Assembly: GCF_900169565.1 (NCBI RefSeq) | Contig: NZ_LT828648.1 | Span: 1,676,876-1,740,875 of the forward strand | Direction: 5' to 3' | Length of the DNA stretch: 64,000 nucleotides | From: Nitrospira japonica | GTDB taxonomy: Bacteria; Nitrospirota; Nitrospiria; Nitrospirales; Nitrospiraceae | Shown here: piece by piece, positions 1,533 to 6,454 of the stretch | Layout of the letters: every line of letters starts with the position of its first letter | Position numbering within the stretch: position 1 is the first letter of the stretch | Program-made: the position numbers and the translations under genes | The notes under the pieces: model-generated | Told to the model about the DNA's origin: nothing | The model's input: only the letters and a program-made list of their open reading frames with translations | Databases searched by the model: none

Positions 1533-2177
1533 CTAGGCTGCCTGGTTGCGTACGAATCGTCCGATGCGTCGAAGATCCTCGACCAAGCGACCAAATGCTT
1601 CACTGCGCGCGGCTGCGTCCGGATATCGGAGAATCGCCGAGGGGTGGATCGTCACAAATACGTGGGTTGCCAGTGCGGTATCCCACGGCCGACCTCTTAA
1701 CTCGCTCAGTCGGACCGTCTTGGCGAATACCGATTGCGCGGCCGTGACACCGAGGCAAACGAGTGCATGCGGCTTCAACACCGAGACCTCTGCCTGCAGC
1801 CAGGGCCGGCATGCAGCCACTTCGGCGGCCGACGGCCGCTTGTGTTTGCGCTTCTTGCCTTGCGGTTCCCATTTGAAATGTTTGACGGCATTGGTGACGT
1901 ACACCTTGTCGCGTGCAATGCCCGCTTCGGCCAGGGCCCGATTCAACAGGGCTCCAGCCGGTCCGACGAAGGGCCGTCCCATCCGGTCTTCTTGATCGCC
2001 CGGTTGTTCGCCGACGAACACGATTGAGGGATGGCGTGGTCCCTCTCCGAAGACTGTTTGCGTGGCGGTCCGATAGAGATCGCAGCCGGTGCAGCAGGCC
2101 GCCGCACGCCGGAGAGCGGGAGGAGTCAGTCTTGGGGGAATGAACGAAGCGGCGGATTGGAAAGGATGCAGTTTCAC
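1533..2177 (-). CDS. udgX: UdgX-type uracil-DNA glycosylase
   Basis: A 214-aa member of the family 4-like Fe-S uracil-DNA glycosylases. Motif G-E-Q-P-G-D-Q (56-62) and H-P-S-A-I-L-R near the end are the two glycosylase motifs. The insert K-K-R-K-H (108-112) followed by K-R-P-S is the UdgX signature loop (K-R-R-I-H in mycobacteria), whose His forms a covalent bond to the abasic site after uracil release. C29/C32 and C123/C141 are candidate cluster ligands. The start is GTG, overlapping the dnaE2 stop as GTGA, so it is translationally coupled as the last gene of imuB-dnaE2-udgX. Expected role: capture or protection of uracil/AP sites during error-prone synthesis. Confidence 0.9.
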   Translation of the reverse strand: MKLHPFQSAASFIPPRLTPPALRRAAACCTGCDLYRTATQTVFGEGPRHPSIVFVGEQPGDQEDRMGRPFVGPAGALLNRALAEAGIARDKVYVTNAVKHFKWEPQGKKRKHKRPSAAEVAACRPWLQAEVSVLKPHALVCLGVTAAQSVFAKTVRLSELRGRPWDTALATHVFVTIHPSAILRYPDAAARSEAFGRLVEDLRRIGRFVRNQAA

Positions 2178-5100
2178 AAACCATCATACCATGGCTCGGA
2201 GGACAGCGATGGGGAGGACTCGTCTTTCGATACGCGATCGAGAAAACGTAGGTCCGAAACCGTGATGGTCAGGGCACCGAAGGAGCTTTCCACCACCCCG
2301 CATACCACATATGGCCGTCTGGACGACAGAAGTCGATGGCAGCGCCGGTAGACGTCCGGAAACAGGGTCGCATCATAGAGGGCGGTGGTGTCTTCCAGAG
2401 TGATAAATTCCATTGGAAGGCCGTCTTTGGTTTCTACCGGCTTTTCCGTGACGAGCCATCCCACCATGGTGATGTGGCGTCCGATGAACCGACCCATTTG
2501 TGAAGCCGGCACCGGCCGCACTCGCTCAATCTGATTCCGATACTGTGTCAGAGGATGGCGGGTCGCCAAAAAACCGAACGATTCGATCTCATGGGCCAAT
2601 GTCTGTTTGGGAGCGTAGTCATCGGGTATCGGCAACGGATCGGGCTCGGAAGTGCCCGCGTAGAGCCGCCAGAGCAGGGCCGGACGGGTCAATTCGCCGG
2701 CGATGGAATCGCAGCAGCCTGCGCGAACGAGCGCTCGAGCCTGCTCCGTGTCGGGGTTGATGCGCTGGAGAAAATCCCGAAAGGAGCGATACGGACCGTG
2801 AGCCGTCCGCTCCTTGACGATTCGGACGCAGAACTCTTCCGGCAGTGTCTTGACCTGCATCAGCCCCATGCGCAGCCGCTCACCTTCTCCCCGGTAGGCC
2901 CAGTCGCTGGCATTCACATCCGGAAGGAGGATCGCCAATCCCATTCGGCGTGCCTCGGAAAGATACGCGAGCGTCGAATAGAACCCGCCGTGATTACTGA
3001 TGACGGCCGCCATGAATTCCGCCGGATAATGGGCACGAAGATAGGCTGACTTGAATGAGACCTGCGCATAGCTGGCTGAGTGAGGTTTGCAGAAGCTGTA
3101 GCCGGCGAAGCTCATGATCATCGCCCAAATCTTCCCGACCACTTCCGGCGAGGCTCCGTTGCCCGCCGCGCCAAAGCAAAATTGCCGATAATAGTCTTGC
3201 AATTGCCGCCGCTTGTGCTTTTTGCTGATGATCTTGCGGAGGTGATCCGCATCTTCCACGGAAAACCCGGCCAGAGCCATCGCCACCTTCGTGACGTCCT
3301 CCTGGTACACCATGATGCCGAACGTCTCGCGCAGGATGGGTTCGATCAGCCGGTGCAACGGTTCGTAGGGTTCTCCGTGGGCGCGTCGGACAAATTCATG
3401 GACGAAGGTGATGGCGGCCGGTCTGACGAGCGACGACACGATGACCAGGTAGTCGAACACGTCGGGGGTCGGCTGCCGGTCCGGCGGCATGCCGAGCCAG
3501 AGTTTTTTCAATAGCAGCCTCGTGGCCGGCGATTCGATGTAGAAGCACCCGATCGTATCGCCTCGTTTGATGAGATCTTGCGTGGCCCGGTCGTGCAAGG
3601 GATCCCAGGCCGCGTAGTCGATGTGGCGGCCCGTATGACGCGCGACGGCCTCCAGCGCATCGCGGATGACGGCCAGCGAACGGTTCCCCAGGATGTCGAT
3701 TTTGACCAGACCCGCTTCTTCCGCCTGATCTTTTTCCCATTGAATAACCGGCCGGTTTTTGACCGTCCGTTCGATGGGCACATACCGTCTGACGTCATCG
3801 GGCGTGATCACCACGCCTCCGCAGTGCAGGGAGAGATGGCGGAAATGATTCTGTGCCCGCAGTGCCTGCCTCAAAATTTCAGGCCACGGGGCATTCAGGC
3901 CGAGGGCCGTTACGATCGCACGGAGCCACTGCGCGCCGGTTGGGGCATCAACGAAGGTCTGTTCACGAATGATGCGGGAGGTTACGGTCGAAATGTCCCC
4001 GGCCGGCATGCCGTAGACTTTCGCGGTTTCGCGGATGGCGGCGCGGAGGCCGAGATGGTTTTGGTTTGCGACCATTGCCGCCCGCCCGGCGTACTGCGTG
4101 AAGATTGTCTCGAATACCGCCTCGCGTTCATCCCAAGGAAAATCGATGTCGATATCGGGTGGATCGGTGCGGCCCGGATTCAAAAACCGCTCGAAGAACA
4201 GATTGTGCTTGAGCGGGTCCACGTGCGTGATCTTCAGGCAGTAGGACACGATTGACGCCGCCACCGAGCCGCGGCCGCACGTTTCGGATGTTCCGACGAG
4301 TTCGTGCACCACCAGAAAATAACGAGCGAAGCGTTTCTGCCGGATGATCCCGAGCTCTTTTTCAATGCGCTCCCGGATCTCCGGCGAGAGCGCGCCATAT
4401 CGTTCGGACGCACCCGCATAGGTGCGCAGGCGAAGGGTGTCGAATGCCTCGTCGTCCTTGAGGCTTCCGAAGGAAGGCGCGGCGACGTCGTGAACGGCCC
4501 ACTTGCTGTGACAGGACTCGGCGATCCGGACCGTATTGTCCAGCGCCGCCGGCGCATGGGGGAAGTGCAAGGCCATCCGAGCAGGCGGCATCAGCCATTG
4601 AGACGGTCCGCAGCAGGCTTCGGCTGGCAATCGCGACAGCGTGGTGTTGAGGGCGACCGCGCGCAGCAGACGGTGTGTGCCGTAGGCGTCCGGGCGTGCA
4701 AAATACACCCGGTTGGTGGCGACCGGCGGCAGCCCGCTGCGGCGGCTGAACTGCAACGTTCCGTACATGGCGGGACCGGGCGTCAATTCCACATAGAGAT
4801 CGCGAGTGGATTGCGTAGCCCACGCGGAAAGGGCCGCCTCGTCGTCGGTGAAAATGATCAAGCCCTGGCGATGGCGGGCCACGGCGGAAAGAACATCGAA
4901 TGGCCGATCGCCGTGCCGTTCGGACAATAGACGACAGAGATTGGCATAGCCCTCCGGTGTTTTGACCAGCAGCACGGCGCGGTGGCCGGCGGTCGTCAGT
5001 TCGGCGCCGAGAATGGGCCGCAGTCCCCGCTGCAGGGCGAGATCAATAAATCGGATGGCACCGTAGAGCCCGTTGGTATCGGTCAATGCCAGACAGGAGA

Positions 5101-5206
5101 GGCCTTGTTGCTGCGTTACGGCACACAACTCGTCGAGGGGAGATACGCCGCGCATGGGCGAGTAACTCGAATGGACATGAAGATGAACGAACGGAGGAGG
5201 CGTCAT
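2174..5206 (-). CDS. dnaE2: Error-prone DNA polymerase III alpha-type subunit (DnaE2/ImuC-like)
   Basis: A 1010-aa C-family polymerase. Order: N-terminal PHP domain (H-L-H-V-H-S-S-Y-S at 8-16), the catalytic palm with P-D-I-D-I-D-F near residue 350 and the third Asp in K-I-D-I-L-G-N, helix-hairpin-helix region, then a C-terminal OB fold. It is shorter than replicative DnaE, as expected for DnaE2. The ATG at 5206 overlaps the imuB TGA (ATGA). An upstream in-frame start at 5311 would lie wholly inside imuB and is rejected. Its partners are the Y-family pseudo-polymerase ImuB upstream and UdgX downstream. The family performs translesion synthesis and damage-induced mutagenesis. Confidence 0.9.
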   Translation of the reverse strand: MTPPPFVHLHVHSSYSPMRGVSPLDELCAVTQQQGLSCLALTDTNGLYGAIRFIDLALQRGLRPILGAELTTAGHRAVLLVKTPEGYANLCRLLSERHGDRPFDVLSAVARHRQGLIIFTDDEAALSAWATQSTRDLYVELTPGPAMYGTLQFSRRSGLPPVATNRVYFARPDAYGTHRLLRAVALNTTLSRLPAEACCGPSQWLMPPARMALHFPHAPAALDNTVRIAESCHSKWAVHDVAAPSFGSLKDDEAFDTLRLRTYAGASERYGALSPEIRERIEKELGIIRQKRFARYFLVVHELVGTSETCGRGSVAASIVSYCLKITHVDPLKHNLFFERFLNPGRTDPPDIDIDFPWDEREAVFETIFTQYAGRAAMVANQNHLGLRAAIRETAKVYGMPAGDISTVTSRIIREQTFVDAPTGAQWLRAIVTALGLNAPWPEILRQALRAQNHFRHLSLHCGGVVITPDDVRRYVPIERTVKNRPVIQWEKDQAEEAGLVKIDILGNRSLAVIRDALEAVARHTGRHIDYAAWDPLHDRATQDLIKRGDTIGCFYIESPATRLLLKKLWLGMPPDRQPTPDVFDYLVIVSSLVRPAAITFVHEFVRRAHGEPYEPLHRLIEPILRETFGIMVYQEDVTKVAMALAGFSVEDADHLRKIISKKHKRRQLQDYYRQFCFGAAGNGASPEVVGKIWAMIMSFAGYSFCKPHSASYAQVSFKSAYLRAHYPAEFMAAVISNHGGFYSTLAYLSEARRMGLAILLPDVNASDWAYRGEGERLRMGLMQVKTLPEEFCVRIVKERTAHGPYRSFRDFLQRINPDTEQARALVRAGCCDSIAGELTRPALLWRLYAGTSEPDPLPIPDDYAPKQTLAHEIESFGFLATRHPLTQYRNQIERVRPVPASQMGRFIGRHITMVGWLVTEKPVETKDGLPMEFITLEDTTALYDATLFPDVYRRCHRLLSSRRPYVVCGVVESSFGALTITVSDLRFLDRVSKDESSPSLSSEPWYDGL

Positions 5207-6396
5207 GGCCTGACCGCACCCCAAGAAACGGCTTGCACGCCGAACTTGGCGCGGATCCGGTCCACAGCCAGAGAGAGACGCTGGTGCACCGGCGGCGTCG
5301 AGGCCGGCCATGTTTCGAACAGTTCAAGCTGGTCGATCGGAGACTCCAATTGATCGACCTGAAGCGTGACGTGTTGCAGCCGGACGCGTCGCCGGAAGCA
5401 CCGGATGAACAGACGTCTGAGGACCGGCTGGAGATCGGCCTCCCAACAGGTCGCATGGTGAAGCCGTTGTTGGGCGAGCTGGTGCTGGTGATCGCTGTGT
5501 CGAACGAGGAGCTGCAGGCGCCGGCAGACTCGCCCTTGCTGCCGAAGAGTCGCGCAGAGATTCTCCAAGAGGACATATAAACGTTTCAGCAGCCTGTCGT
5601 CATCGATCTCATCGGGATTCAGTCCGAGCGACTGTTCGATTGCCGGTTGATCGGCCGGAGAACGCACAGGGGACGGATCGACTCCCGATGCCCAATCATG
5701 CAGCCACGTGGCCGCAGCGCCGAAAGCCGATTGCAGGTGAACCAGCGGTACGGATGAAACGGCTCCCATGGTCTTCAGATTCAAGTCTTCCAGCCGTTGC
5801 AGAATGTGTGACGCGCGCACGTGCCGCGCGTGATGCTGGAGGCCTGGAAGCCATGCGGCCGGCAAGGGGGCGAGAAACGATTGTTCCGAGCCGGCTTGAA
5901 TGGAGAGTATGTGCGGTGATGCGGTGAGAGAGGTCGCCGCCAGCTGCGAAACCAGCTTGCTGCCTGCCAGTCCGATGACAGTCTGTAATCCTTGCTGCCG
6001 GGTCAATGCCCGCCCGAGGCGGGAAACCGTATCGATGGGAGGGCCGAAGCAGCGAGCCGTTCCGGTGAGATCCAGGAACAGGGCTCCGAGTCCGATCGAT
6101 TCCCACGCCGGCGCGAACGGCAGAACGGTTCGTTGCACGGAGCGATGAGCCGCCCGCATTGACGGCAAGTCCGGCGGAATGAGCCGTAGGTTTGGACAGA
6201 GACGCCGGGCCAACTCGATTGGGATGCCGGGCCTCACGCCTTCCTGCATCGCTTCGCGAGAGGCTTCAAGGACCAAGGCGCGTGGAGTATGAAGAGGGGC
6301 CAGCACGACAGGACGGTTCCGCAGCACTGGGTCAGTGGCTTGGGCGAGGGCAATCCCAAAACATGGGATCTGCACGTAGGCGATATGGCGATCCAT
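5203..6396 (-). CDS. imuB: ImuB-like catalytically inactive Y-family polymerase, mutasome adaptor
   Basis: A 397-aa protein with DinB/UmuC-fold organisation. Catalytic carboxylates are missing: the first-strand D-M-D of active enzymes reads V-Q-I-P (8-11), and the S-I-D-E motif is S-I-G-L-G-A (100-105) before the retained F-L-D-L-T-G. This is the hallmark of ImuB. A clamp-binding type motif Q-L-E-L-F lies at 356-360. ImuB links DnaE2 to the beta clamp in other bacteria. The start is ATG at 6396, with a GTG immediately upstream at 6399; no clear Shine-Dalgarno is seen. It is the first gene of the operon, behind a promoter overlapped by a palindrome. No imuA is found beside it. Confidence 0.88.
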   Translation of the reverse strand: MDRHIAYVQIPCFGIALAQATDPVLRNRPVVLAPLHTPRALVLEASREAMQEGVRPGIPIELARRLCPNLRLIPPDLPSMRAAHRSVQRTVLPFAPAWESIGLGALFLDLTGTARCFGPPIDTVSRLGRALTRQQGLQTVIGLAGSKLVSQLAATSLTASPHILSIQAGSEQSFLAPLPAAWLPGLQHHARHVRASHILQRLEDLNLKTMGAVSSVPLVHLQSAFGAAATWLHDWASGVDPSPVRSPADQPAIEQSLGLNPDEIDDDRLLKRLYVLLENLCATLRQQGRVCRRLQLLVRHSDHQHQLAQQRLHHATCWEADLQPVLRRLFIRCFRRRVRLQHVTLQVDQLESPIDQLELFETWPASTPPVHQRLSLAVDRIRAKFGVQAVSWGAVRP

Positions 6397-6410: not shown

Positions 6411-6426
6411 ATTGGAAGTATCCAAT
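6411..6426. promoter_or_regulatory. Perfect palindrome, candidate repressor operator of the imuB operon
   Basis: attgga-agta-tccaat: perfect 6-bp arms around a 4-bp spacer, ending 14 bp before the imuB ATG and overlapping the end of the predicted -10 and the start-site region. This is the expected place for a repressor. It does not match the E. coli (CTGT-N8-ACAG) or Bacillus (GAAC-N4-GTTC) LexA boxes. Identification as a LexA-type site is inference from the operon's role. Confidence 0.5.
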
Positions 6427-6454
6427 GGTTACAAATGAAGATGCCCGATGTCAA
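6425..6454 (-). promoter_or_regulatory. Predicted sigma70 promoter of imuB-dnaE2-udgX
   Basis: On the minus strand a consensus TTGACA (6454-6449) is followed after 17-18 nt by TAACCA/AACCAT (6431-6425). The -10 is weak, consistent with a regulated promoter, and abuts the palindrome at 6411-6426. Confidence 0.45.

Follow-up and report, generated by a model that had tools for sequence, protein, structure and literature searches.

What controls the error-prone polymerase genes of Nitrospira, a genus of major nitrifiers, is the question raised by a short intergenic segment within the 64,000-nucleotide stretch of Nitrospira japonica DNA analysed here (the window). A sequence-only reading had placed a perfect palindrome, ATTGGA-N4-TCCAAT, at a repressor's position over the imuB promoter, behind a TTGACA, and had suggested that it could be the SOS box of this lineage, bound by the host LexA and repeated before lexA and recA. 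The analysis points to a different, overlapping 17-mer, which is very probably the operator of a non-canonical LexA in Nitrospira's order, one that would repress both itself and imuB-dnaE2-udgX and be relieved by RecA. No description of this system was found in the open-access literature on Nitrospira with LexA, SOS, or imuB.

The imuB gene (5203–6396, minus strand; ATG at 6396) encodes a Y-family polymerase homologue (Pfam IMS, E 1.4e-25; IMS_C, 1.7e-10), with a β-clamp-like QLELF motif near the C terminus of its translated product. Its stop codon is overlapped, through ATGA, by the start of a gene for a dnaE2-type error-prone polymerase (2174–5206, minus strand; Pfam and NCBIfam), and imuB thereby lies beside dnaE2 in one operon, as in ImuB/DnaE2 mutagenesis cassettes. 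The dnaE2 stop is in turn overlapped (GTGA) by a gene for a UdgX-family uracil-DNA-binding protein (1533–2177, minus strand; TIGR03914, E 1.6e-78), and the three genes probably form a single operon with the UdgX-type gene third.

The promoter of this operon lies on the minus strand and reads TTGACA-N15-TGTAACCAT, with the −35 element TTGACA at 6449–6454. By sigma-70 rules, TGTAACCAT (6425–6433, minus strand) is a probable extended −10, composed of TGn and AACCAT with an 18-bp spacer. The operator itself, TGTAACCATTGGATACT, runs from 6433 to 6417 on the minus strand, 15 bases past TTGACA and 20 bases ahead of the imuB ATG, so that the probable −10 falls within its left half, and a bound dimer would be expected to block RNA polymerase. 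When the imuB promoters of relatives are aligned, TGTAACCATTGGTTACA or one-letter variants of it occupy the same place, and the consensus before imuB and before the gene of the candidate regulator is TGTAACC-ATT-GGTTACA. The operator, its conservation, and its position in the promoter are direct observations, and they uphold two parts of the earlier reading, namely a repressor position over the imuB −10 and a sequence unlike the textbook LexA box. The window's own imuB operator departs from the consensus by two mismatches, both in the right half; thus, repression there may be weak.

Further sites were sought by pattern searches with mismatches allowed, rather than with a weight matrix. At up to three mismatches genome-wide, the sole perfect site, TGTAACCNNNGGTTACA, lies 2 bp ahead of the ATG of a gene encoding an XRE helix-turn-helix joined to a Peptidase_S24 domain (XRE-S24), and only this site and the one before imuB have TTGAC at the right distance. 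The promoter and operator together, with up to two mismatches, were found in 54 of 118 relatives, whereas the reversed control gave a handful of matches. S24 homologues were also collected without reference to the motif, from a protein search: 82 distinct XRE-S24 promoters were read, one of them masked. Each of the 81 readable promoters contains the operator or a variant that keeps its symmetry, ending at the start codon or up to about 20 bases 5′ of it (eleven were missed by the strict script pattern and were read by eye). The variants preserve the dyad symmetry, as in TGTATCC/GGATACA, TGTGACC/GGTCACA, TGCAACC/GGTTGCA, and TGTAACA/TGTTACA. In the 11 genomes with separate promoters, the imuB and S24 operators co-vary within genomes (total Hamming distance 10 versus 20.5 when shuffled; p 5e-5, uncorrected for relatedness), and genome G096 has TGCAACCATTGGTTGCA at both.

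Because the same site precedes the genome's only LexA-like S24 gene and the imuB genes of relatives, the 17-mer is probably the DNA-damage (SOS) switch of the lineage. The earlier proposal of a lineage-specific SOS box survives in that form, with different letters, different partner genes, and a different type of LexA. The site expected before recA was absent from this genome and from 35 relatives, in which the best matches had four to seven mismatches and were scattered. The observed target set is tiny, and the best reading is that of a small regulon centred on mutagenesis, under a LexA-like repressor.

The earlier reading had the host LexA in view as the binding protein. A profile search, for which control genomes were positive as expected, found no LexA DNA-binding domain (PF01726) in this genome. 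Its one Peptidase_S24 protein, of 181 residues, is encoded at C1:2711390–2711935 and consists of an HTH_3 head and an S24 body (PF00717, E 3.4e-30); it passes the NCBIfam lexA model through residues 45–178 only. In comparison with PDB sequences, the body matches LexA (E 2.7e-23) and UmuD (2e-12), and lambda CI gives no match at 0.001. It shares 42% identity with the LexA body of E. coli, and the alignment with LexA spans the cleavage site VAAG as well as the catalytic Ser and Lys; A66-G67, S100, and K137 are invariant in 36 homologues. A canonical LexA is accordingly ruled out for this host, which has no PF01726 winged helix-turn-helix, an HTH_3 head instead, and no pair of sites before lexA and recA. 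The C-terminal S24 domain with its Ala-Gly site and Ser/Lys dyad is that of LexA, and the combination of HTH_3 with S24 in a LexA-less genome, with a palindromic operator in front of both its own gene and error-prone polymerase genes, is that of a non-canonical LexA.

An AlphaFold2 model of XRE-S24 (mean pLDDT 87) has a four-helix head and a body resembling LexA bound to the RecA filament (8gms; Z 15.8, rmsd 2.6 over 120 residues). Taken by itself, the head resembles HTH domains of the Aca10/Aca2 type (Aca10, 7xi5; Z 11.1, rmsd 0.9 over 54 residues). These VIA-align matches back shared folds and are no proof of function. In a tree of S24 bodies, all XRE forms fall in one group; the deep forks are weak and the branches long, and the tree does not settle descent of the body from LexA.

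From these features we infer that XRE-S24 binds the site, represses from it, and is cleaved upon a RecA trigger. A dimer would bind TGTAACC-N3-GGTTACA across the −10 of its own promoter and that of imuB-dnaE2-udgX, where it would exclude RNA polymerase and keep both promoters off. Upon DNA damage, RecA filaments would promote cleavage of XRE-S24 at the conserved Ala-Gly, by analogy with LexA; the cleaved dimer would then leave the DNA, freeing both promoters and allowing the error-prone repair proteins to be made.

The regulator's own locus shows two further features. Many genomes contain a second XRE-S24 copy within the imuB operon (loci L160, L182, L183, and L195; L158, L188, L190, and L192), with operators that differ yet are symmetric (TGTATCC/GGATACA or TGTRACA/TGTYACA); this suggests paralogous SOS switches, each with its own specificity. 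At 13 of 93 loci, the XRE-S24 gene is followed on its own strand by a gene for a RecA/Rad51-like protein of about 260 residues (L299:3314–4102, equal to G000:C1:2712313–2713101), a possible ImuA-like partner that would share an operon with the repressor.

Some evidence runs against XRE-S24 as the protein that uses the site. Genome G006 has the imuB most similar in sequence (ImuB 83% identical) and a 99% complete assembly. Its imuB operator is retained (G006:C2:725287–725324, locus L110), yet the genome has no XRE-S24 match, and its only two S24 proteins (L169 and L172) belong to a different family. The case of G101 (91% complete) is similar, with the imuB site kept and no XRE-S24 gene in the assembly. 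These assemblies may lack the gene, it may have been lost recently, or the site may serve another protein. The last of these would fit a genuine operator belonging to a different regulator, which would govern both XRE-S24 and imuB and have the S24 protein merely as a target. We consider this improbable, given that the site stands at the start of the XRE-S24 gene in every readable promoter, that copies within one genome are differently mutated and still symmetric (TGTATCC/GGATACA and TGTAACA/TGTTACA), and that in many cases the S24 gene and imuB lie in one operon. Together, these three features are the signature of autoregulation.

The palindrome of the sequence-only reading, ATTGGAAGTATCCAAT, is present at 6411–6426 (unstranded) upstream of imuB, as is the minus-strand TTGACA at 6454–6449. 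It is perfect, lies just past the −10 region, and overlaps the genuine site, six bases away. However, perfect 6-N4-6 inverted repeats number 22 in the window (307 with spacers of 0–12), the exact ATTGGA-N4-TCCAAT is unique in the genome (a single contig of 4.08 Mb), and it does not precede imuB in any relative read, including the one with an 83% identical ImuB. For these reasons, the palindrome is probably a product of chance: it is real as letters, its overlap with the operator's right half looks coincidental, and there is very little likelihood that ATTGGA and TCCAAT are operator half-sites. It was dropped as a regulon motif, having a single genomic place. Least credible of all is a conserved strong promoter without any repressor, for which the extended −10 in the left half at the right distance from TTGACA would account, but not the equal conservation of the right half 3′ of the −10, the joint change of both halves with symmetry kept (TGTGACC/GGTCACA, TGCAACC/GGTTGCA, and TGTATCC/GGATACA), or the restriction of the pattern genome-wide to three gene families.

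The operator of a non-canonical LexA, as preferred here, was also followed beyond the relatives by searching about 85,000 species for the exact pattern TTGAC-N15/16-TGTAACC-N3-GG(A/T)TACA. The scan returned 80 readable places, all with the fixed TTGACN-N14/15-operator spacing, and 77 of them lie directly before an XRE-S24 gene (63, including 10 where imuB follows in the operon), imuB (7), or a member of a small gene family (7). The remaining three, which precede none of these, are TTGACG-N14-TGTAACCATGGGATACA sites in Nocardia (L258, L271, and L280) and are probably unrelated. Outside Nocardia, the records are named Nitrospira, Nitrospirales, or Nitrospirota with five exceptions: a Proteobacteria record and a Nitrospinota record, each with its site ahead of an XRE-S24 gene, and three that bear the label uncultured Nitrosospira. 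XRE-S24 itself gave strong matches in 67 of the 118 relatives; across 395 genomes sampled from the phylum, strong matches were confined, among those listed, to the order of the window genome, with only weaker ones elsewhere in the phylum. Candidatus Nitrospira defluvii (FP929003) also has the gene (L238:2028–2576, minus strand). About a dozen relatives possess a full LexA, and in the genomes searched it never coincides with XRE-S24.

The small gene family encodes proteins of 118–127 residues, and its members immediately follow the operator in some genomes of Nitrospira, chiefly in genus g5 (L215:2311–2664, L225:1967–2323, L230:2720–3079, L246:5611–5964, L266:4053–4433, L274:4265–4618, and L282:3862–4215). 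The family has no Pfam match, no member was found in the window's genome, and a structure model was too poor for use (mean pLDDT 58). Most members end in QLR(L/M)F(D/E)D, which resembles a β-clamp-binding motif, and a new SOS-induced replication factor is possible.

With regard to the origin of the system, a source in phages was considered and rejected: viral contigs held no match to a slightly wider promoter-operator pattern, and phage records match the S24 body alone, never 80% of the protein. A tentative alternative, to which we give somewhat less than an even chance, is that a cellular LexA in the order's ancestor had its head swapped for one of the XRE/Aca/MqsA type. Rewiring of the SOS response would then have come about through a domain swap and not through the capture of a phage repressor, and the regulon would have shrunk to one centred on mutagenesis, with XRE-S24 itself, imuB-dnaE2, and, in some species, the small protein with the clamp-binding-like motif. 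A LexA-like body on a foreign head bears on how the SOS network becomes rewired, and with operator and regulator named, induced mutagenesis can be tested directly in this phylum.

Among known systems, canonical LexA combines PF01726 with PF00717 and recognises CTGT-N8-ACAG. The Nitrospira protein shares its S24 body, VAAG scissile site, and Ser-Lys dyad; in contrast, its head is of XRE type rather than the LexA winged helix, and its operator is not CTGT-N8-ACAG. The non-canonical LexA of Bacteroidetes, an autoregulated HTH_3 (PF01381) and S24 protein, controls error-prone polymerases in LexA-less bacteria; its operators are GGA-N5-TCC and CTAA-N5-TTAG, its regulon is large and includes recA, and it is phage-repressor-like and restricted to Bacteroidetes (PMC8565304). 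The two systems are alike in HTH_3 and S24 architecture, a site at the regulator's own gene, polymerase targets, and a fixed-spacer palindromic operator. They differ in that the Nitrospira operator, TGTAACC-N3-GGTTACA, conforms to neither Bacteroidetes motif, its regulon is tiny and lacks recA, and its S24 body is nearer to cellular LexA.

HdiR of Streptococcaceae is likewise a non-LexA S24 regulator of itself and of a mutagenesis cassette, but it belongs to an unrelated lineage and clusters with Streptococcus phage repressors (PMC8565304). FddR of Francisella, which also contains S24 and autoregulates, stands at the head of a small DNA-damage network in bacteria that lack LexA; however, its operator is GTG-N11-CAC, and it clusters with lambdoid phage repressors (PMC13148647). 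UmuDAb of Acinetobacter resembles the Nitrospira protein as an S24 domain furnished with a DNA-binding head that represses error-prone polymerases, yet it derives from UmuD, requires DdrR as corepressor, and acts at an atypical SOS box (PMC8565304, PMC11332147). The Nitrospira system appears to be an independent case of non-canonical LexA control of the SOS response, with a LexA-like body and a foreign DNA-binding head: its architecture and regulatory logic are those known from non-canonical LexA systems, and its operator, its lineage, and its LexA-like body set it apart from them.
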